DNA from: Pseudoalteromonas espejiana DSM 9414
GTDB lineage: Bacteria; Pseudomonadota; Gammaproteobacteria; Enterobacterales; Alteromonadaceae
Direction of reading: 5' to 3'
DNA length: 64,000 nucleotides
NCBI RefSeq assembly: GCF_002221525.1
Contig: NZ_CP011029.1
Span: 248,001-312,000 of the forward strand
Numbering within the stretch: position 1 is the first letter of the stretch; the number at the start of each line of letters is the position of its first letter. This document shows, piece after piece, positions 2,663-22,830 of the stretch. A program made the position numbers and the translations under genes. The notes under the pieces are model-generated. The model had not been told where the DNA came from and did not search any database. It saw nothing but the letters and a program-made list of their open reading frames with translations.

Positions 2663-3460
2663 ATGAGCGACTTAACTGCAATAGCTAACTTATCAATATT
2701 ATTGGTTGAGCCTTCAGAGGTTCAGCAAAAAATAATTATAAAATCGCTAGTAGAAAGTGGTGTTAAACAGGTTGAAACTGCCTCTACTCAAGAACAAGTT
2801 TTATCGATGCTTGAAGGCTACCACCCAGATTTAGTGATTAGTTCAATGTACTTATCTGACGGCACTGCCGACTCGCTATTGCAAAAAATAAGATCAAACC
2901 CAGCCACTGAGCATCAACCTTTTATGCTTATATCGAGCGAGCGTAATAAAAAATACCTTGAGCAATTACGCCAATCGGGTGTGCTGGCTATTTTACCTAA
3001 GCCTTTTAGCGCAAAAGCTATTACCCGCGCATTAAAAGCAACGCTCGATATTATAAGCGAAGAAGAAGTAGAGCTTGATCATTTTGATGTAACGCTACTG
3101 CGTGTGCTAGTGGTTGACGACAGCCGCTTTGCGCGTAAACACATAATACGCGTACTTGCTGGCATGGGTATTCCTGAGCCAGTAGAAGCCGAAAACGGTA
3201 AAGAGGCAATAGCGCATCTAAGTGAGCAGTCGTTCGACTTAATTGTTACCGATTACAACATGCCGGAAATGGATGGGCGCGAACTAACCGAAACAGTACG
3301 CGGCTCAAACGCTTACTCGCATATTCCTATTTTAATGGTGAGCTCAGAGGCAAACGACACCCACCTAGCTAATATTGCGCAAGCGGGAGTTGATGCCATT
3401 TGTGATAAACCGTTTGAACCCGCAACAGTGCGAGAGCTTCTATATAAAATAATGTCTTAG
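2663..3460 (+). CDS. Tandem receiver-domain (REC-REC) response regulator without output domain
   Basis: Two CheY-like domains in 265 residues. The second (about 146-265) is complete: DD at 152-153, phosphoacceptor D197 in VTDYNMPEMDG, and a CDKPF lysine. The first (about 10-128) is degenerate: the acidic pair reads VEP and the phosphoacceptor position is Ser61 in VISSMYLSDG, though the KPF motif is kept. So only the C-terminal receiver should be phosphorylated. With no DNA-binding or enzymatic domain it probably acts by protein contact, as CheY does; the partner kinase is not adjacent. A strong hairpin terminator follows. Function beyond signalling is inference. Confidence 0.88.
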   Translation: MSDLTAIANLSILLVEPSEVQQKIIIKSLVESGVKQVETASTQEQVLSMLEGYHPDLVISSMYLSDGTADSLLQKIRSNPATEHQPFMLISSERNKKYLEQLRQSGVLAILPKPFSAKAITRALKATLDIISEEEVELDHFDVTLLRVLVVDDSRFARKHIIRVLAGMGIPEPVEAENGKEAIAHLSEQSFDLIVTDYNMPEMDGRELTETVRGSNAYSHIPILMVSSEANDTHLANIAQAGVDAICDKPFEPATVRELLYKIMS

Positions 3461-3490
3461 AAGATTAAAGCGGCGAACAAGTAAAAAATT

Positions 3491-3526
3491 AAAAAGCGGT
3501 AGTAACGCATAACTGCCGCTTTTTTA
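3491..3526 (+). terminator. Rho-independent terminator, probably bidirectional
   Basis: Hairpin with arms AGCGGTAGT and ACTGCCGCT around an eight-base loop, preceded by an A-run and followed by six T. It lies between the convergent REC-REC gene and argO, so it can serve both strands. Confidence 0.85.
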
Positions 3527-3528
3527 AC

Positions 3529-4131
3529 TTATTGGCTAGGCACGTTATACAACTGAAACGCTACAAAACATAAAATAGCGGCTACGCAGCTATCAAATAT
3601 GCGCCATCTAAAAGGGGAGCTTAAAACCTTTTTTAATTTTGGCGCAAATAACACTAAACTACTAAACCAAATAACAGAGGCAACACAAGCACCAATAGCA
3701 AAGTGCATAGGCTCTGGTTGGAGTGCGCCAATACTGCCAAGCAGTAATACGGTATCTAAATAAACATGTGGATTTAGTAAACTTATTGCAAAGGCCGCAA
3801 GGGCAGTTTGCCACCAGCTCACTTTTATTACCTGAGTTACTTTCAACCCCGATGTGCCTTTAATTGCACTGCGCGCAGAGCCAAATGCTAAATAAAGTAA
3901 CATAGCTATACCGCCCCACGTTAACCACGGTAATAACCCTGGCAGCCATAGCTTTAACTCATTAGCTGCAAATACCCCTACAATAATTAAAGTGGCGTCA
4001 CAAATTATACAAACCGCGGCTAAAACAAAACGGTTAGTGCCCGCCATACATTGACTTAAAATCCAAATGTTTTGCGCCCCAATGGCAATAATTAAACTCA
4101 GCCCCAGCATCACACCCGACAAAAACGACAT
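3529..4131 (-). CDS. argO: LysE/ArgO-type amino acid exporter
   Basis: A 200-residue polytopic inner-membrane protein with about six hydrophobic segments. It carries the LysE family landmarks IGAQN (about residues 17-21) and LNPHVYLDT (about 118-126). Members export arginine, lysine or related basic amino acids. It is divergent from an ArgP-type LysR regulator, which is the classical arrangement in which ArgP activates argO in response to arginine or loss of lysine. Length is typical. Substrate follows from the family and the neighbour, not from direct evidence. Confidence 0.88.
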   Translation of the reverse strand: MSFLSGVMLGLSLIIAIGAQNIWILSQCMAGTNRFVLAAVCIICDATLIIVGVFAANELKLWLPGLLPWLTWGGIAMLLYLAFGSARSAIKGTSGLKVTQVIKVSWWQTALAAFAISLLNPHVYLDTVLLLGSIGALQPEPMHFAIGACVASVIWFSSLVLFAPKLKKVLSSPFRWRIFDSCVAAILCFVAFQLYNVPSQ

Positions 4132-5151: not shown

Positions 5152-6465
5152 TTATAGCTGCCCTAATCTGTATATAAGCAGCGCTGTTTTAGCGGTGTTT
5201 TTATTTAGGCTGGTTAAATCGGCGGTTTCGTTTTTAGTGTGCGCGCCACTGCCCATTAGGCCTAGCCCATCAAGCGCCATATCAACATGGTTTGCAGCAA
5301 ACGAAATATCAGCAGCACCGGCATTACGAGGGTTTGCAGCCACCACTTTGTTATAGCCTAAGTCTTGGCTTGCTTGGCTATACAGTGCAAGCAGCTTTTT
5401 ATTACCTTCGGTGAGCCCCATTGGTGGGTAGCCGTCTTCAAAAATAAGCTCAGCTTGGCTGCCATTTAAGCTTTTAGCCACTATTTGCTGCATCACTTTT
5501 TTAGCGCCTTCTACCTGCTTTGGCGAAAGCGCTCGTAAATCACCCGCTACATGCACGGTTTGTGCAATTACATTACTTTTACCAAACGCCGTGGCTGACG
5601 AGTTAGCACTGTTGTACTGTGCATCAGTGCCACCCACAATAAGCCCCGGATTAAAGGTTAAATTAGGTTGTGTGGCAAGTTGTTCTCTAAAGTCATTTAA
5701 AATACGAGAGGCCTCGTAAATAGCACCGTAGCCCACAGTTTCACTAAATATTTGCGATGAATGTGCAGCATTGGCCGTTACGTTTAGCGTCCAGCCAGTA
5801 TAACCACGGCGCGCAGCCATCGCGGTTTTAATATTGTTATCGCCATTTTCATAGCCAAGCGCTACATCTGCCCATATTGCGCCATCAACAATAGCTTGCT
5901 TAGATAAGCTAAGTGGGCGACCGCTGCTTTCCTCATCGCCGGTAAGCAGTACTTTTACGCTTACGTTTTCAAGTAAATTAAGGGCTTGTAAGCTTTTAAG
6001 GGCGGTAATTATAATGGTATTGCCGCCTTTCATATCGGCTACACCCGGGCCGCTCGCGGTGTTCTCATCAATTTGTTTATAGGTAGTAAAGTTATCGTGT
6101 TTGGCAAACACAGTATCAAGGTGGCCGATCATCAGTATTTTTATTGCATCGGGGTTTTTACTCTCATGCGTAGCGAGTACATGCCCTGCACGGTTAAACG
6201 TGCTGCCATCTAACCACTCAACCTTAAAACCAATCGCTTTTAGTTGCTCACTTGCAAGCGCGCCTACTTTTTTTACACCTTCAATATTAAGTGAGCCGCT
6301 ATTAATGTTTACCGCTTGTTTTATTTCTTCAAGCGCTTGCGGCATGTTGTGCTCAACTTGTTTAACTATTTGCCGCTCGTTTTTATCAAGTGCAGCAAAG
6401 CTTGTGATAGGTATAGTAGTGGCAAGGGTAACGATAAGAGCGTGGCTAAACTTTAAAAGGGACAT
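5152..6465 (-). CDS. Periplasmic M20 metallopeptidase (glutamate carboxypeptidase-like)
   Basis: A 437-residue protein with a signal peptide (to about residue 25, ITSFAA) and the M20 metal-binding set: GHLDTVF (H115, catalytic D117), PGVADMKGG (D144), TGDEESSG (E178/E179) and GSGAHTKNE near the C-terminus. The dimerisation lid domain sits between about 215 and 330. This arrangement matches carboxypeptidase G2-type dizinc exopeptidases that release C-terminal glutamate or other amino acids. Translation ends 15 bases from the convergent argP gene. It is a single-gene unit; exact substrate is unknown. Confidence 0.88.
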   Translation of the reverse strand: MSLLKFSHALIVTLATTIPITSFAALDKNERQIVKQVEHNMPQALEEIKQAVNINSGSLNIEGVKKVGALASEQLKAIGFKVEWLDGSTFNRAGHVLATHESKNPDAIKILMIGHLDTVFAKHDNFTTYKQIDENTASGPGVADMKGGNTIIITALKSLQALNLLENVSVKVLLTGDEESSGRPLSLSKQAIVDGAIWADVALGYENGDNNIKTAMAARRGYTGWTLNVTANAAHSSQIFSETVGYGAIYEASRILNDFREQLATQPNLTFNPGLIVGGTDAQYNSANSSATAFGKSNVIAQTVHVAGDLRALSPKQVEGAKKVMQQIVAKSLNGSQAELIFEDGYPPMGLTEGNKKLLALYSQASQDLGYNKVVAANPRNAGAADISFAANHVDMALDGLGLMGSGAHTKNETADLTSLNKNTAKTALLIYRLGQL

Positions 6466-6778
6466 AACAGCCTAATAAGTGAAAAATAGTTCAGCTAATA
6501 TGAAGTAAAAATACTGAGGATTCAATAGAAGTAGATTATGACTTGTACAAACAATAATGAGTTACAAAGTTAAAGGTTAAAGTGGGTATGCGTTATTGAC
6601 TTAAATTCAGATATTTAAAATATAACCTGTTAATTAATAATCAACCGGTATAACTAAACAACGATTTGTCTGATATTACTGATCTCCACCATTTTGGGGT
6701 TTTGCTGCATTTAAGAAAGGAAAGTCGAAGCTAACTATCTGTTTACAGGTGTTTATTATATGGTTAGGATGAAACTGG
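6466..6778. other. Intergenic region at the left edge of the accessory island
   Basis: No ORF of note in this stretch. It must hold the leftward peptidase promoter. Near its right end, AGCTAAC (6729-6735) and GTTAGGA (6763-6769) resemble the outer boxes of an integron attC site, but they lie only 41 bases apart with just a short CTGTTTACAG dyad between, so this is at best a deletion remnant. Confidence 0.35.
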
Positions 6779-6786
6779 TATAAAAT
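6776..6786 (+). promoter_or_regulatory. Candidate extended -10 promoter of the kinase gene
   Basis: TGG followed by TATAAAAT forms an extended -10 element; no good -35 hexamer is present 16-18 bases upstream. Transcription would start near 6791-6793, exactly at the foot of the hairpin below. Confidence 0.45.
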
Positions 6787-6789
6787 AGG

Positions 6790-6821
6790 GACATCTGTCG
6801 GTTTGTAAAACGACAAATGTC
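6790..6821 (+). promoter_or_regulatory. Leader inverted repeat in front of the kinase gene
   Basis: GACATCTGTCGGTTT pairs with AAACGACAAATGTC around a three-base loop, with one mismatch and one bulge. It also contains the perfect dyad CGACAAATGTCG. If the -10 above is right, the mRNA would begin with this stem, 15 bases before the start codon. It could be an mRNA-stabilising or translation-controlling hairpin, an operator, or a recombination-site remnant. Confidence 0.55.
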
Positions 6822-6836
6822 GTAGACTAAGTTGTT

Positions 6837-8030
6837 ATGGTTCAATTAGAGACAGGTTTTATAATATTAATGAATGCAGATAATGCCATAGAGAGTCACT
6901 ACAGAAAGCTCATTGATATTTTGAATAATGAATTCGAAGATCTTTACGAATCAATAAATAATGACAAGTTAAGGATTTTATTCTCTACTCTTCACTCTAG
7001 CGTCACTAGTCTTTTTGACTCGATGAATAATAGGCTTCCAACAGATGAAGACACGGCTCACTTCTGGGCAGACCCGAGTAGGGAACTCATTAGATCTATA
7101 GAGACGATTGAAGCTTTAGAGAGATCTTTGAAGAACTCCGAACATGCATTCTATATTGAGGAGTACCATCGAGATAGACTTACTTTTTGTAAGAGCTTTC
7201 TGAGTAAGAGTGGTGGGAGTGCAATCCCTCCTTATACTGAAAAGATAGAGATTTATTATACTATCCCAATATTTTTTCCACAAAGCTCAGTGAAAATTGA
7301 GAACAAAAATAAGACCGCTGATCTAAAGGCTCTAGGTAGTGGGTCTTATGCAAATGTCTATAAGTATTTTGACAGTTTCTATAATAAAAACTTTGCTTTA
7401 AAGCGGGCAAAGAAAGATCTAAATGCAAAGGAAATTGAAAGGTTTAAGCGAGAGTACGAACAAATGAGTATGCTAAGCTCACCATATGTTCTAGAAGTTT
7501 ATGGATACAATGAAAAAAACAATGAGTACATTATGGAATTTATGGACAACTCATTGGATAAGTATATGTTAAAAAACAATTCCAAGTTATCGTTTCAAGA
7601 TCGCGTTAAGTTAGGGCTGCAAATACTCAGAGCTTTCTCGTACATACATTCTAAAAATATTTTGCACAGGGATATTAGCCCTAAAAATATTCTACTCAAA
7701 GAATATGATGATGTGGCTGTAGTGAAAATAGCGGATTTTGGTCTGGTGAAAATCGTTGATAGCGAACTAACTTCTGAAAATACGGATTTTAAAGGCTACT
7801 ATAATGATCCAAGCCTAGTTACAGAAGGGTTTGATAGTTATAGCATCTTGCATGAAACATACGCGTTGACTCGTATTTTATATTACGTCTTAACCGGAAA
7901 GAGTAAGACTGAAAAATCACCAGAGAATGTGCGTGCTTTCATTGATATAGGCCTGAGTAGTGATAAGTCTATTAGATTTAAAGATGTTGATGAGTTACGC
8001 ATAGCCTTTCAAGCTATCGCACCAATGTAA
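6837..8030 (+). CDS. Ser/Thr protein kinase with unrecognised N-terminal domain
   Basis: The 397 residues end in a complete Hanks-type kinase domain (about 163-397): glycine loop LGSGSYANVY (166-175), ATP lysine K189, helix-C glutamate near 207, catalytic loop HRDISPKN (277-284) and DFG (300-302). The N-terminal 160 residues are mainly helical in appearance (helix pattern to about 120, then an IPIFF strand region) and match nothing I recognise. There are no membrane segments. Eleven of 18 arginine codons are AGA/AGG, unlike the CGN-rich neighbours, which suggests transfer. An attC-like site follows the stop codon. An alternative start at 6870 (MNADNAIES) cannot be excluded; Shine-Dalgarno is weak for both. 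A role in phage defence or signalling is speculation. Confidence 0.85.
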   Translation: MVQLETGFIILMNADNAIESHYRKLIDILNNEFEDLYESINNDKLRILFSTLHSSVTSLFDSMNNRLPTDEDTAHFWADPSRELIRSIETIEALERSLKNSEHAFYIEEYHRDRLTFCKSFLSKSGGSAIPPYTEKIEIYYTIPIFFPQSSVKIENKNKTADLKALGSGSYANVYKYFDSFYNKNFALKRAKKDLNAKEIERFKREYEQMSMLSSPYVLEVYGYNEKNNEYIMEFMDNSLDKYMLKNNSKLSFQDRVKLGLQILRAFSYIHSKNILHRDISPKNILLKEYDDVAVVKIADFGLVKIVDSELTSENTDFKGYYNDPSLVTEGFDSYSILHETYALTRILYYVLTGKSKTEKSPENVRAFIDIGLSSDKSIRFKDVDELRIAFQAIAPM

Positions 8031-8035
8031 TTTTG

Positions 8036-8117
8036 CCGTGAACCATATCAAAGCCCAGCAGTTCGTAGCCTTCGGCTACCGGACTCGCTTCGCTCGCCGC
8101 TGTGGGCGGCGTTAGCT
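8036..8117 (+). other. attC-like recombination site 1
   Basis: Six bases after the kinase stop begins a highly palindromic stretch: GCCCAGCAG pairs with CTGTGGGC, enclosing GTAGCCTTCGGCTAC and the GACTCGCTTCGCTCGCC dyad, and ends in GGCGGCGTTAGCT. The GCGTTAG end and the imperfect nested stems are the usual look of integron attC sites. The left outer box is degenerate (only GAAC remains instead of a clean YYYAAC). Confidence 0.6.
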
Positions 8118-8137
8118 ATCTAGGAGGTAACATTTAG

Positions 8138-8395
8138 CAAAGTACATTTAGGCCAATAGGGGTATTAGGTGGAGGTTCAATTCCTCTAGCGATTGTTGGC
8201 TCTGTAGCCCTTTTATTAATTTTACTTCGTTACTTAACCATTCGTTTAGTTCCTTTGGCAAACGATAACAGTAAAAAGGAGGTGTCTATGGTAAAAACAA
8301 TAACTGCTCGTACTCGTATTTTTTTAAGCTCTGCGTTTGAAACTTTATGGGCTTACGGAGTCAGCAGCGTGGCAGGTTTGCACCTTTTGGCCTAA
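8138..8395 (+). pseudogene. Small membrane-protein cassette ORF that lost its start codon
   Basis: An open frame of 85 codons with no ATG or GTG at its head: QSTFRPIGVLGGG then a strong hydrophobic helix (PLAIVGSVALLLILLRYL), then a polar tail ending SSVAGLHLLA. An excellent AGGAGG lies at 8122-8127, but where the start should be the sequence reads TTTAGCAAAG. Inserting one T (TTTATGCAAAG) would give an ATG eight bases after AGGAGG and in this frame. I infer a one-base deletion of the start codon. The cassette begins at the attC-like GTTAGCT just upstream. No family recognised. Confidence 0.5.
8288..8395 (+). CDS. Possible 35-residue ORF within the decayed cassette
   Basis: ATG at 8288 is preceded by AAGGAGG seven bases upstream, a near-perfect ribosome binding site, and reads MVKTITARTRIFLSS... 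to a TAA at 8393. It is in the same frame as the larger startless ORF, so it may be an internal restart or simply its tail. No family recognised. It is listed because the ribosome binding site is unusually strong. Confidence 0.3.
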   Translation: MVKTITARTRIFLSSAFETLWAYGVSSVAGLHLLA

Positions 8396-8406
8396 GTGTA
8401 TTCGAT

Positions 8407-8496
8407 AGCTAACAAAGCTTCCAATCATCGCCACTTTGTGGCAGGACAGCCTAAAGAGTGCTTTGCACACGTCTATTGGTTATGGCGGCGTTAACA
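8407..8496 (+). other. attC-like recombination site 2
   Basis: Starts with AGCTAAC (8407-8413) and ends with GCGGCGTTAACA (GTTAACA at 8490-8496), the expected outer boxes of an attC site. CCAAT (8421-8425) pairs with ATTGG (8475-8479), and the interior holds short stems GCCACTTTGTGGC and GTGCTTTGCAC. A ribosome binding site and ATG follow the GTT within 25 bases, as in typical integron cassettes. Confidence 0.6.
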
Positions 8497-8512
8497 GTTC
8501 AAGGAGTAGTGT

Positions 8513-8851
8513 ATGGAATGGTTTTTAGTAATTTGCTTTATTATTAGCGTAACATCTTTGTATTTTAGTTATGGGTCTAGGCATTATATTCCCGAAAAAG
8601 TGTTGGTAGACATGGGAGAGCAAGTGTTCATTTCTCACTTACCCGTTGCTAAATTAAATAAAAAGTATGGGAAAACTATTCCTAAGTCTTCGGTTACTAA
8701 AATCCAGTTAGCTGGTAACTATGTTAGTTTCTTCAATGCGAGTGATAATGCTGTTGATATTTGGGCACCAAGCGATCGCCTAGCGAAGCCCATTTTTGAG
8801 TATGCAAGAGGGATTTTTAAAGATGCAGACGTTGTTGTTATAAACTGCTAA
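8513..8851 (+). CDS. Small hypothetical protein with one N-terminal membrane helix (cassette gene)
   Basis: A 112-residue protein: hydrophobic helix at residues 3-20 (FLVICFIISVTSLYF), then a polar basic-to-mixed domain ending VVVINC. The start has AAGGAG seven bases upstream and sits 20 bases after the attC-like GTT, so there is virtually no 5' leader. Its TAA stop lies inside the next TGCTAAC box. Both features are typical of integron cassettes. No family is recognised; it is probably anchored in the inner membrane with a cytoplasmic or periplasmic C-terminal domain. Confidence 0.6.
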   Translation: MEWFLVICFIISVTSLYFSYGSRHYIPEKVLVDMGEQVFISHLPVAKLNKKYGKTIPKSSVTKIQLAGNYVSFFNASDNAVDIWAPSDRLAKPIFEYARGIFKDADVVVINC

Positions 8852-9001
8852 CAATCATATTAAGCTGCTCGCAAGGACTATAGCACGAGCGAATTGCAGC
8901 CGACTCAAATTTTAGATCGTATGTCTGTGTGCATCATTAGATAATAAACTAGACACCCATCTCAAATTTTTAGTCTATCCAGCCGGTATTTAGAGTTAAC
9001 A
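8846..9001 (+). other. Possible attC-like site 3, degenerate
   Basis: TGCTAAC (8846-8852) overlaps the stop codon of the preceding ORF, and a GTTAACA identical to that of site 2 occurs at 8995-9001. Between them, CTGCTCGC and GCGAATTGCAG form an imperfect stem with extra bases on one arm. The right arm lacks the GCGGC part, so the site is weakly supported and may mark the eroded end of the array. Confidence 0.35.
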
Positions 9002-9005
9002 ACCA

Positions 9006-9036
9006 TCAGGTTTAACATCATTGGCATTAAACCTGA
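9006..9036. repeat. Inverted repeat downstream of the SDR gene
   Basis: TCAGGTTTAA and TTAAACCTGA flank an 11-base spacer. There is no T-run on either side, so it is not a standard terminator. TTGGCATTAAA inside it (9021-9031) is repeated at 9069-9079 in the end of the SDR gene. Confidence 0.45.
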
Positions 9037-9060
9037 CAGCTCAAACTCAACCAATCAACG

Positions 9061-9741
9061 TTAGTTAGTTGGCATTAAATAAATCTCGCGTACGCTGTTG
9101 CGCTGGTTTGCTTCTATTGCAAACAATACCGCGTCGGCTACATCTTGTGGGTCGAGTTTGTCGGGCTTAGCTTCATCAAAAAATGGGGTGTTTACCATGC
9201 CTGGGGCTATGGTGGTACAGCGGCCATTCCACTCGCTCATTTCCTCAGCTAAGTTTTGTCCAAACCCGTAAGCAAACCATTTAGTTGCACCGTAAATAGA
9301 GCCTTTAATAGGCTTACGACCAGCGGCTGAGCTGGTTAATATAAAATGACCTTTGTTTTGGCGTAAATGGGGCAGTGTTGCTTTTGCCGTCCACAGCAGA
9401 GCTTTAATGTTTATGTCTATCATGGTTGACCATTCATCAGGGTCACCCTTTTCGGTGCCTGCGGTTGAAACGCCCATACCTGCATTGGCAAATGCGGCGT
9501 CTAATCGGCCAAATTTTTCGAGCCCTTTTGTTACCACGTTTTCAAGCTCGGTAAAGTCGGTGGCATCTGCGGGTACACTCAGTGCGTTATCTTCACCTAA
9601 TGATTGTACTAATTGAGTTAATTTGTCTTCGCTTCTGGCAGTAAGTATTACTTTGTGGCCGTTATTAACCAGTGTTTTGGCGGTTGCTTCACCTATGCCA
9701 CTAGAAGCACCTGTAATGAGGACTATTTTTTCTTTCGCCAT
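9061..9741 (-). CDS. Short-chain dehydrogenase/reductase (copy 1 of a tandem pair)
   Basis: A 226-residue classical SDR with TGASSGIG (cofactor loop, residues 10-17), NAG (near 91), SSAAG containing the catalytic Ser, and YGATK (Tyr/Lys catalytic pair near 150-154). ARSEDK after the second strand suggests NADP preference. The sequence resembles YdfG-like NADP-dependent hydroxy-acid or serine dehydrogenases, but substrate is not determinable. A GGAG ribosome site precedes the ATG. It is about 80% identical by hand count to the neighbouring SDR and lacks any other operon partner. Confidence 0.85.
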   Translation of the reverse strand: MAKEKIVLITGASSGIGEATAKTLVNNGHKVILTARSEDKLTQLVQSLGEDNALSVPADATDFTELENVVTKGLEKFGRLDAAFANAGMGVSTAGTEKGDPDEWSTMIDINIKALLWTAKATLPHLRQNKGHFILTSSAAGRKPIKGSIYGATKWFAYGFGQNLAEEMSEWNGRCTTIAPGMVNTPFFDEAKPDKLDPQDVADAVLFAIEANQRNSVREIYLMPTN

Positions 9742-9969: not shown

Positions 9970-10650
9970 TTAATTGGTTGGCCTTAGGTGTATTTCTCTG
10001 ATGTTATTGCGCTGGTTTGCTTCAAGTGCAAAGAGTACGGCGTCGGCAACATCTTGTGGGTATAATTTGTCGGGCCTTGCTTCATCGGTAAATGGAGTAT
10101 TTACAGCACCTGGGGTTATGGTGGTACAGCGCCCGCCCCATTCGCTCATTTCTGCTGCGAGGTTTTGGCCAAAGCCATAAGTAAACCACTTACTTGCACC
10201 ATATATTGAGCCTTTAACAGCTCTGCGGCCAGTGGCTGAGCTGGTTATAATAAAATGGCCTTTGGTTTTTCGTAAATGGGGGAGGGTCAGTTTAGCGCTC
10301 CACAGCAGGGCGTTTATGTTTATATTAAGCATAGTTGCCCATTCGTCGGGGTCGCCTTTTTCTATTCCTAATGTGTTTAGCCCTTTACCTGCGTTTGCGA
10401 ATGTAGCGTCTAAGCGGCCAAATTTGCTAAGCCCTTTTGTTACTGCGTTTTTAAGCTCGTTAAAATTGGTTGCATCTGCCGGCACGCTGAGTGCGTTATC
10501 TTCACCTAATTCTTTGACTAATTTTGTTAGTTTGTCTTCGCTTCTGGCTGTAAGTATGACTTTGTGGCCGTTATTAACCAGCGTTTTGGCAGTTGCTTTG
10601 CCAATACCGCTAGAGGCACCTGTAATGAGGATTATTTTTTTGTTCGCCAT
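9970..10650 (-). CDS. Short-chain dehydrogenase/reductase (copy 2 of a tandem pair)
   Basis: Also 226 residues, alignable to the downstream copy without gaps, with about 45 differences counted by eye. The SDR motifs are all kept: TGASSGIG, NAG, SSATG and YGASK. Most differences cluster at residues 93-130 and the C-terminal substrate-loop region, which suggests drift in specificity after duplication. The upstream segments are also alike (GGAGAAAT ribosome site, TATTCAAAAT), so the duplication included the promoter area. Each copy is probably its own transcript. Confidence 0.85.
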   Translation of the reverse strand: MANKKIILITGASSGIGKATAKTLVNNGHKVILTARSEDKLTKLVKELGEDNALSVPADATNFNELKNAVTKGLSKFGRLDATFANAGKGLNTLGIEKGDPDEWATMLNININALLWSAKLTLPHLRKTKGHFIITSSATGRRAVKGSIYGASKWFTYGFGQNLAAEMSEWGGRCTTITPGAVNTPFTDEARPDKLYPQDVADAVLFALEANQRNNIREIHLRPTN

Positions 10651-20709: not shown

Positions 20710-22830
20710 GTGCGAGAAATCACGTTAGCAAAAAAGTTATTATGGATAACAGTAGGTAGTACATTTTTAACAGTATTAGTACTTTCTGGGGTTTTATGGT
20801 GGCAGATGTCATTAAACAGCGAGGCGCTCGCTAAAGAGTCTGAGGAGTACATTGTGGCTGAGGTTGAGCAAAAGCTTAACGCCAATGCTGCAGCCTACGG
20901 CGAAAAAATAGCTGGTTTTATTAACGAAGCTTACCGAGTTCCAAACTCTTTAGCTGCATTACTTGGTGATGCGGCTAAAACGCAAACCTTAGACCGTGAT
21001 ACCGTAGTGAGTATTAACCGCTCTATTTTAGAAAAAAACCAGTTTTTATCTTCTATTTATTCGCAGTTTGAAGCGAACGCCTTTGACGGACAAGACGCCC
21101 AATTTAAACAAGGTTTTAAACACTCTGTTAATGGCGATGGCACGTTAGAGGTGTATATAACGCGCGATCAAAACGGCAACATTGAGCAACAAAAAGTAGC
21201 TAACGCTGCCGATAAATACCTAACCTCTTTAAACGAGTTTGGTATTCGCGAAGCGCATTGGTACTTGTGTGCAAAAGACACGCTAAAGCCGTGTATTATG
21301 GAACCGTACTTATACGAGATCCCATCTGGCGACTCTGTCATGCTAACATCATTAACCGTGCCAATTATTAAATCTGGCCGCTTTATTGGTTTAGCTGGCG
21401 CTGATTTAACGCTACCTACCTTTCAGGGCTTAACCGAAAAACTCTCGAGCGAGCTATACAACGGCCAAGCTAAAGTAACTCTGCTTAGTGACATTGGTTT
21501 AATTGTAGGTAGCAGCCATTATAAATCTAAATTAGGCCGCCCGTTTAAAGAAGCGGTTAGCAGCAATACTTACCGTGAGCTGGTTAAATTTAAAGGTCAA
21601 CATGGCTTGTTTAAAACACCTAGCGAGTACCTAGTTAATTACCCTATAAATATTAAGCTTGCTAATACACAGTGGAGCCTGCTTATTGAAGTGCCAAGCA
21701 ATTTAGCACTTGAAGGGCCTAATGCTCTAGCTAAAAACATGAGTGACTCGGCTAATCAGCTTGGTTTAGTTATTTTAATAACGGGCGCCGTTATTGCTGT
21801 TATTGCCTTTATTATTATGAAAATAGTAGTAGGCTCTGTGGTTGCCCCACTTGAGCAAATTCAACAGCGTGTAGATAACCTTGCCAGCTCTGAGGGCGAC
21901 TTAACACACACTCTCCACGTTGATACGCATGCAGAACTTATAGCCCTTGCTGGTGGATTTAATGCCTTTTTAACTAAATTACGTGGCTTAATTGCAGAGC
22001 TAAAAGATGTTTCATCGCAAACTAAGCATCAAGGCGAAATAGCGCAGCATATTGCTATTGATACTAAGCATAACGTGCAATCGCAATTTCAAGAAATTGA
22101 AAGCGTGGTAACCGCCATGAACGAAATGAGCGCTACTGCACTTGAAGTTGCAAGAGCCTCTGAGCAATCAGCACAACAAGCGGATGAAATAAATGGTTTA
22201 GTGGTAAGTAGTGAGTCGAGCTTGTCATCGGCTATGAGCCAAGTTAAAACCATGTCTGAAGAAATAAAAGAAGCTAACCAAGCCGTTGAAAAAGTGGCGT
22301 CGCGTAGTAAAGACATTACACAAATTTTAGATGTAATCAGAACTATTTCAGAGCAAACAAACTTACTTGCACTGAATGCAGCCATTGAAGCAGCACGTGC
22401 TGGCGAGCATGGCCGAGGTTTTGCGGTTGTTGCCGATGAAGTACGCGCACTTGCTTCTAAAACCCGTTCATCTACCGATGATATTAGCCAGCTTATTGAT
22501 AGCTTATTGTTAGAAGTAGGTAATGCATCTACCGTGATTGAAAAAGGCGTAGTACGGGCTGAAAGCGCAGTAGACGAAACCTCAGTTGCTTTTGATGCAC
22601 TGCATAGCGTGGTAGTAAAAGTAGACGAAATTACTAATCAAATTACGCACATTGCCACCGCAGCTGAAGAGCAAAGCTTAGTAACCGAAGAGATAAACCG
22701 TAACCTAACGCTTATCTCTGATGCGGCATCGCAGCTTGCTGATTTATCTACCCAAGCGGGCGATAGCAGCGAAGCGCTTAATGCATTGGTAGCGCAGCAA
22801 GATAGCGAGCTTAATAAGCTTAAAACGTAA
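20710..22830 (+). CDS. Methyl-accepting chemotaxis protein with periplasmic dCACHE-like sensor
   Basis: A 706-residue transmembrane chemoreceptor. TM1 is at about residues 10-30 and TM2 at about 348-372. Between them lies a 310-residue double-CACHE-like domain ([22 protein letters not shown] is typical of the membrane-distal ligand pocket). A HAMP domain follows (about 373-425) and then the signalling domain with hairpin tip [33 protein letters not shown], split here by description only. Start is GTG with AAGG eight bases upstream. Ligand unknown; dCACHE receptors often bind amino acids or other small organics. Monocistronic, with a strong terminator. Confidence 0.93.

Follow-up and report, generated by a model that had tools for sequence, protein, structure and literature searches.

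A probable integrase-less integron platform, headed by an orphan attI, on a Pseudoalteromonas chromid

How are integron-type gene cassettes delivered to, and exchanged at, a place that encodes no integron integrase? This question is raised by a stretch of 64,000 nucleotides from Pseudoalteromonas espejiana DSM 9414 (NZ_CP011029.1, positions 248,001 to 312,000; hereafter the window, or G000:C2:248001-312000), whose genome comprises two contigs and 4.5 Mb. The closest named records found for the window contig are large Pseudoalteromonas replicons deposited as plasmids, which we term chromids here. A cluster of genes sits in the window between an M20 peptidase gene and an SDR oxidoreductase gene, both on the minus strand. 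A first-pass annotation had described it as an integron-type cassette cluster of the CALIN class (clusters of attC sites lacking integron-integrases), with three attC-like sites and no integrase nearby. Our analysis bears out the cassette cluster without local integrase, through cassette exchange and two attC sites. The CALIN label suits the attC cluster and the lack of a nearby integrase, but it is incomplete: the array is preceded by an attI, which that annotation had missed, and a candidate cassette promoter (Pc). With a probability of roughly 0.8, we read the locus as an integrase-less integron platform on a Pseudoalteromonas chromid, made of an orphan attI, a candidate Pc and three gene cassettes (Table 1), which would be stocked in trans by an integrase (IntI) from elsewhere.

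The identification of the attI rests on its copies. About 93 bases ahead of the first open reading frame (ORF) recur in many genomes, often as several copies each, in searches with the left flank as query, and an alignment of 35 attI copies extends to the GTTA that overlaps the start of this ORF. Over 174 bases, the window core is 76% identical to a copy on the other replicon (G000:C1:1818962), which lies 62 bases from a broken integron integrase gene, in divergent orientation. Because this homologous copy adjoins a broken intI, we interpret the window core as an attI/Pc region. The locus hence possesses, by homology, the attI of a complete integron and lacks the adjacent intI: a search of the window with IntI proteins gave no match near the attI and no intI trace at the locus. 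The earlier statement that no integrase is nearby thus holds locally, while the genome has one broken intI on its other replicon. A pattern scan of 6470-6900 returned five promoter-like sites against 2.2 expected (standard deviation 1.6), an excess that is not significant alone; the candidate Pc matches the consensus, and its TTACA is conserved. The repeat finder lists no inverted repeat in the window copy, where the repeat ahead of the crossover is imperfect, and gives a pair of 16-base arms, 94% complementary, ahead of the crossover in the intI-linked copy L010. A LexA-like box (CTGT-N8-ACAG), which in the attI-intI spacer would point to LexA control of the intI promoter, is matched at 6 of 8 positions in the window copy, a level reachable by chance in a best-of-90-bases scan.

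The strongest evidence concerns the first cassette, which encodes a protein kinase. A copy 98.1% identical over 1280 bases is found in another species, at a different locus of its large replicon, the main chromosome (G095:C1:1664151), and the similarity runs from 6836 to 8115, ending in the attI and attC crossover boxes. In G095 the kinase cassette comes after a further cassette, with an attC of 32.1 bits under the model described below; the adjoining gene on that side is an SDR fragment which, by eye, matches the gene beside the broken G000 intI, and the searches located neither an attI nor an intI of G095 at this spot. The complementary case is a third species, G063 (L050), which aligns with the window up to 6837 and resumes at 8114, the base after the GTT of the first attC. 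Between these breakpoints it carries a different first gene (172 amino acids), the attI and cassettes 2 and 3 being retained. Breaks inside GTT boxes are what site-specific cassette movement predicts, and the exchanges in G063 and G095 both have their ends there, as expected of an integron cassette array. At the level of sequence comparison, these alignments show that the first cassette is mobile, with its ends in the attI and attC crossover boxes. Sharing is also seen elsewhere, between orphan loci of two species: a 441-base cassette at another orphan attI of the window genome (G000:C2:360840, L063) is 94% identical to a cassette of G097 at a different locus (L080), with ends at GTTA and GGCGTTA.

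To evaluate the attC sites, 33 candidates were listed from arrays that relatives carry at other loci, and 27 were aligned. They display the classic pattern, with an R box TAAC/GTTA, three unpaired bases and an L box changed on both sides; part of this covariation stems from our selection rule, which demanded complementarity there. A covariance model, R1, was trained on the 27 candidates, excluding the window and its near copy in G013. Site 1 is its top match in the 64 kb (20.9 bits, E-value 0.015). Site 2 is the third of three (13.9 bits, E-value 0.65), a match at 20880-20964 on the minus strand, probably due to chance, ranking between them (15.6 bits, E-value 0.26). When R1 was run over 6700-9100 with filters off, the E-values were 5.6e-4 and 0.024, and the covariance-model check that had been proposed for the cluster hence places two sites above background over 2.4 kb. 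The third annotated site (8846-9001) gave no R1 match over the same stretch, even with filters off; it aligns convincingly with an attC of G015 at its left end only, and is a probable remnant of an attC left half that ends the array. Pairing of R and L boxes is thus found at site 1 and, weakly, at site 2. The G095 copy of site 1 scores 26.3 bits and has TAAC as its left core, from which site 1 appears slightly decayed in the window. No Rfam family reaches its gathering score in the window, a permissive search of 6500-9300 giving two matches with E-values of 3.8 and 4.6, and unconstrained folds of the bottom strand of the sites did not yield the textbook attC shape. The fold energy of TAAC...GTTA stretches, tried as a site marker, does not single out the sites. 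We trust the cassette boundaries because the exchange breakpoints fall there, and not because of the attC scores. Elsewhere in G000, R1 matches without a listed attI nearby occur at C2:579250-583475, C1:2208605-2209180, C1:816270-816920, C2:208931, C1:1647924 and C2:319476; these may be CALIN, or may begin with a more diverged attI.

Table 1. Features of the cassette locus and its flanks (positions are those of the window)
Feature	Position	Strand	Basis
M20 peptidase gene, conserved left flank	5152..6465	-	Profile and homology searches
Orphan attI/Pc core, ending in the crossover GTTA	6664..6837	+	177-base query with copies in 32 of 108 genus genomes; 35-copy alignment; no intI match nearby
Candidate cassette promoter Pc, TTTACA-17-TAGGAT	6742..6770	+	Pattern scan; TTACA invariant in 35 aligned copies
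Imperfect inverted repeat GACATCTGTCG / CGACAAATGTC, directly upstream of the crossover	6790..6821	.	Sequence
attI crossover GTTA	6834..6837	+	G063 similarity ends at 6837; G095 kinase-cassette similarity begins at 6836
Cassette 1, with attC and a protein kinase gene (ORF 6837-8030, start probably at 6870)	6836..8115	+	98.1% identity over 1280 bases in G095; Pkinase E-value 2.4e-34
attC of cassette 1 (site 1)	8043..8117	+	R1 20.9 bits; G095 copy 26.3 bits
Cassette 2, frame for a small hydrophobic protein, ATA at the expected start	8156..8395	+	Stop-to-stop frame 8138-8395; similar G038 frame with ATG
attC of cassette 2 (site 2)	8407..8496	+	R1 13.9 bits; aligned G063 and G013 copies, core changes
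Cassette 3, 112-amino-acid protein of unknown family	8513..8851	+	G015 DNA homologue (74%) between two model-supported attC sites
Site 3, probable attC left-half remnant and array end	8846..8998	+	No R1 match with filters off; alignment with G015 attC
SDR oxidoreductase gene, conserved right flank	9061..9741	-	Profile and homology searches

The kinase resembles defence kinases (PADLOC mad6, E-value 4.2e-42; Stk2, E-value 5e-35), its NCBIfam matches being far under their cut-offs, and a defence role is plausible from these resemblances. It is 44-53% identical to plasmid kinases of the listed Campylobacter, Priestia and Sarcina records, and 26 Lactococcus records are also counted among its homologues, without listed identities. 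The ATG at 6837 overlaps the attI GTTA; most listed homologues align from residue 10-11, and the likelier start is therefore at 6870 (residue 12). The frame of cassette 2 has ATA where its G038 homologue has ATG, with no usual start codon. The protein of cassette 3 gave no Pfam, PADLOC or NCBIfam match at the limits used; its homologue in G015 is flanked by two model-supported attC sites. The first-pass annotation had the ORFs starting near GTT boxes and ending inside TAAC boxes. Starts near GTT are seen for the first ORF and for the third (8513, 23 bases past the GTT), cassette 2 lacking a usual start codon; an end inside TAAC (8849-8852) is seen for the third ORF, the stops of the kinase (8028-8030) and of cassette 2 (8393-8395) preceding their boxes.

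We then compared the locus between the M20 and SDR genes (locus A) in relatives. The left-flank query matched 40 of 108 genomes, some through the attI part only. Of the 20 regions fetched, four with a distant M20 (66-71%) and no SDR or attI match were dropped (L058-L061), and the window and strain CuT4-3 were added, giving 18 orthologous loci; the counts also exclude two G016 fragments at contig ends (L159, L162) and L199-L201, which are named strains. Genes are present between M20 and SDR in 17 of the 18; those of the remaining locus (L062, G048) are unlisted, with about 1.6 kb between its attI and the SDR gene. An empty site in relatives, which had been suggested as a check, was not seen at any of the 18. 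The contents vary, including a kinase, a HEPN protein, toxin-antitoxin pairs, a VOC protein, what we take from its sequence to be an acetyltransferase, and many unknowns. G013 carries the same set as the window and G063 two of its three cassettes, and genes are also shared within the pairs L046/L047, L054/L056, L051/L052 and L053/L057. Identical contents in all relatives, which would have spoken against a cassette cluster, are thus not observed, G013 being a relative that does match. The attI was found at 14 of the 18 loci (partial in L056, two copies in L053). In strains HL-AS1 and HL-AS2 an attI is likewise present at this locus and the genes differ; Bsw20308 contains a 111-base part of the attI on a rearranged stretch. 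One gene of the locus in G064 (L049, 6698-7708) matches the candidate phage-defence family PADLOC PDC-S08 (E-value 2.6e-118). In the window, the right-flank SDR gene and that at 9970-10650 are tandem paralogues, and a partial SDR copy near a Phd/YoeB-type pair also occurs in L012 and L047.

The attI census was extended to the genus with a 177-base query and at most seven candidates scored per genome, so that the counts are lower bounds. Once 32-base opposite-strand matches to the inverted repeat had been removed, at least 32 of 108 genomes displayed at least 76 attI places, with two or more places in 19 of the 32. At eight places an intI, detected at an E-value of 1e-40 or better, is no more than 300 bases away. 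The surrounding DNA was then searched with IntI proteins of relatives, whereby 76 copies were recognised (G091 lost, CuT4-3 gained). Eight have intI coverage close to full length, including the broken G000 copy, five are beside remnants (L066, L081, L160, L170, L182), and 63 show no trace within 1.6 kb upstream, two of which (L159, L162) lie less than 200 bases from a contig end and cannot be judged. Many fetched regions stop 2 kb downstream of the attI; in the DNA fetched, a model-supported attC follows 33 of the 63 orphan copies and 11 of the 13 intI-linked ones. A complete LexA-like box (8 of 8 positions) is present in 11 of the 13 intI-linked and 11 of the 63 orphan copies, the latter being consistent with descent from complete integrons. 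The only intI found in G000 (C1:1817985-1818900) is interrupted, its sequence being divided between two overlapping frames and its last residues matching further away.

By their flanks, the attI copies fall into 17 groups; seven groups are represented in more than one genome. The largest merges the intI locus with a place behind a gene that, from its end, we presume to be serS, because G034 and G063 carry the serS-like gene followed by intI and attI; in 11 other copies it stands directly before the attI. The locus letters used in the tree and in the sharing analysis are our own assignments; flank clustering alone joins B and C. A tree of 70 attI cores, from which five weak copies (scores below 110 bits) and one L053 copy of two were omitted, unites its 15 locus-A copies in one clade with a support of 1.0. 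It groups the intI-bearing serS copies of G034 and G063 with the intI-linked locus B and not with the orphan serS copies. At serS, arrival or replacement of an intI-attI segment would be as likely as simple intI loss.

How would such a platform work? Cassettes would be inserted at the window attI by an IntI encoded at another locus and, given an intact LexA-like box, under SOS control. A circular cassette would recombine via the folded bottom strand of its attC, and Pc would transcribe the newest, first cassette, here the kinase. In this strain the array is probably frozen, because the only intI found is interrupted. The several lone attI sites of many relatives suggest that an integrase encoded elsewhere could stock them, and loss of intI from complete integrons is the probable origin of the orphan platforms. 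More broadly, and at slightly under even odds, we propose that integrons are distributed in part of the genus. A genome would keep several attI platforms, at conserved positions of its two replicons; most would lack intI, and the integrase encoded at one platform would stock them in trans. The number of first-position, expressed cassettes would thereby be multiplied, and the loss of intI with retention of attI would be a stable state rather than mere decay.

Several observations weigh against delivery in trans or against the platform itself. We infer the action of IntI in trans, no recombination having been observed; the broken intI is the only one found in G000, and by our reading of frames and stops an intact intI is missing from 8 of the 32 genomes with attI, so that delivery in trans could not be current there. 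Sharing between attI loci of the same genome is thin. It comprises short matches (e.g., 420 bases at 96% in G084) and a 2379-base unit of G001 with 100% identity between its copies at an orphan attI and at the intI-linked attI; this unit is weaker evidence because it carries an IS91-family transposase gene. The attI was not found at four of the 18 orthologous loci (L046, L047, L049, L055). Conservation of the attI core at the window locus is 0.854 (15 attI-bearing copies) versus 0.739 for third codon positions of M20 (12 of the 15, full length); the leader upstream has 0.742, a value that rises to about 0.79 once its poorly aligned first 15 bases are set aside, and the extra conservation of the attI core is modest. 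The attC scores of the window are weak taken alone, an R1 search of its own genome, in which 150 of 1739 candidates were scored, gave 16 matches at E-values up to 1, all of them outside the window, and some loci of the attC census had supplied arrays for the training of R1. An exchange of contents could also come about by homologous recombination in the conserved flanks.

The weak model scores are also what speaks for a chance resemblance with no integron feature at all, to which we give next to no credence, since cassette exchange with ends in GTT boxes refutes it. Insertion of cassettes at a chance, attG-like genomic site without attI, for which the CALIN reported at conserved places in Xanthomonas (PMC12444791, in the part available to us) offer a precedent, is very improbable given the 174-base attI homologue and promoter-like site ahead of cassette 1. 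A better claim, still improbable, belongs to interspecies homologous recombination in the M20 and SDR flanks, which would have brought in cassettes already assembled at another place. The flanks are highly conserved and the contents often differ as a block; in comparison with G013, however, identity peaks in the kinase cassette (98.7%), followed by cassettes 2 and 3 (95.9%), the right flank (94.3%) and M20 (92.8%), and is lowest in the adjoining leader plus attI (85.1%), and G063 differs in the first cassette with breakpoints at GTT while retaining the other two. The most serious rival, which we regard as unlikely without being negligible, is that a complete integron lost its intI and has only decayed since, nothing being delivered in trans. 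It would accommodate the apparently decayed site 3 and cassette 2, the broken intI of the genome, the complete CTGT-N8-ACAG box in five locus-A copies (L048, L052, one of two in L053, L057 and L062) and the intI remnants at the five attI copies of other places. It sits poorly with the differing contents among relatives, with a kinase cassette far less diverged than its flanks, and with the lack of any intI trace at the attI copies of locus A (17, including two that cannot be judged because a contig end is close). A platform stocked in trans remains our preferred reading.

Transposase genes were encountered at several of these sites. A 2.4-kb unit with tyrosine recombinase and IS91-family transposase genes starts at the attI GTT in five copies from four genomes (L073 3596-5974 and L074 3637-6015, with related starts in L136, L173 and L181). 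In L073 and L074 it ends, by eye, with a hairpin followed by ACGTTA; it is possibly an IS91-type element moving as an integron cassette. Another transposase gene (MANFKPDLSCQ..., presumably of DDE type) follows an attC at GTTGAGG in L010 (from about 1850) and L053 (from about 3320). This junction also occurs in L052 and L072, L180 and L198 share the stretch, and the corresponding insertion sequence may target attC. After an attC, L081, L071 and L080 have GTTGGTATGAC in common. In L212, an ORF after the kinase attC (2790-3596) looks like a gene for a REP-type Y1 transposase.

How does the locus compare with known systems? As in CALIN, attC-bounded cassettes have no integrase beside them; the window array differs in being headed by an attI and a candidate promoter, the absence of an integration platform being our reading of CALIN, whose formal definition concerns intI only. 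In the portions of the sources available to us, CALIN are proposed to originate from off-target insertion in trans, intI loss or rearrangement (PMC8618304), and integrase-less arrays are viewed as degraded integrons, off-target insertions or rearrangements (PMC9024848, PMC8618304). IntegronFinder is described there as not detecting attI outside class 1 integrons (PMC9024848), because of which arrays at an orphan attI would be filed as CALIN. Our search of the literature, restricted to open papers, found no report of dispersed integrase-less attI platforms. Insertion at attG sites (Loot et al. 2024, as described in the parts seen of PMC12901181 and PMC12444791) likewise places cassettes in trans outside the integron, as would be the case at the window locus, but attG sites are not attI, which is the target here. 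The delta-attI cassettes of class 1 and 2 integrons, in which, according to the portion seen of PMC12901181, attI pieces of varying length replace attC at cassette ends, also have attI sequence outside its usual place, whereas the window has about 175 bases with a promoter-like site heading an array.

The closest likeness is to the sedentary chromosomal integron (intI-attI-cassettes), with which the window shares attI, candidate Pc and attC cassettes, and to which the intI-linked copies of the genus correspond, with their divergent intI and mostly complete LexA-like box. The difference lies in a locus without intI and in two or more attI places per genome in most attI-bearing genomes, against the usual picture of one attI per integron (PMC3607928, in the part available), placed beside intI. 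Here the integrase-less arrays have an attI and a candidate promoter at their head; a genome often has several such arrays, and they lie at conserved loci. Software blind to attI will misfile arrays that start at an orphan attI, and such an attI would provide a concrete reason for the recurrence of integrase-less clusters at fixed places.

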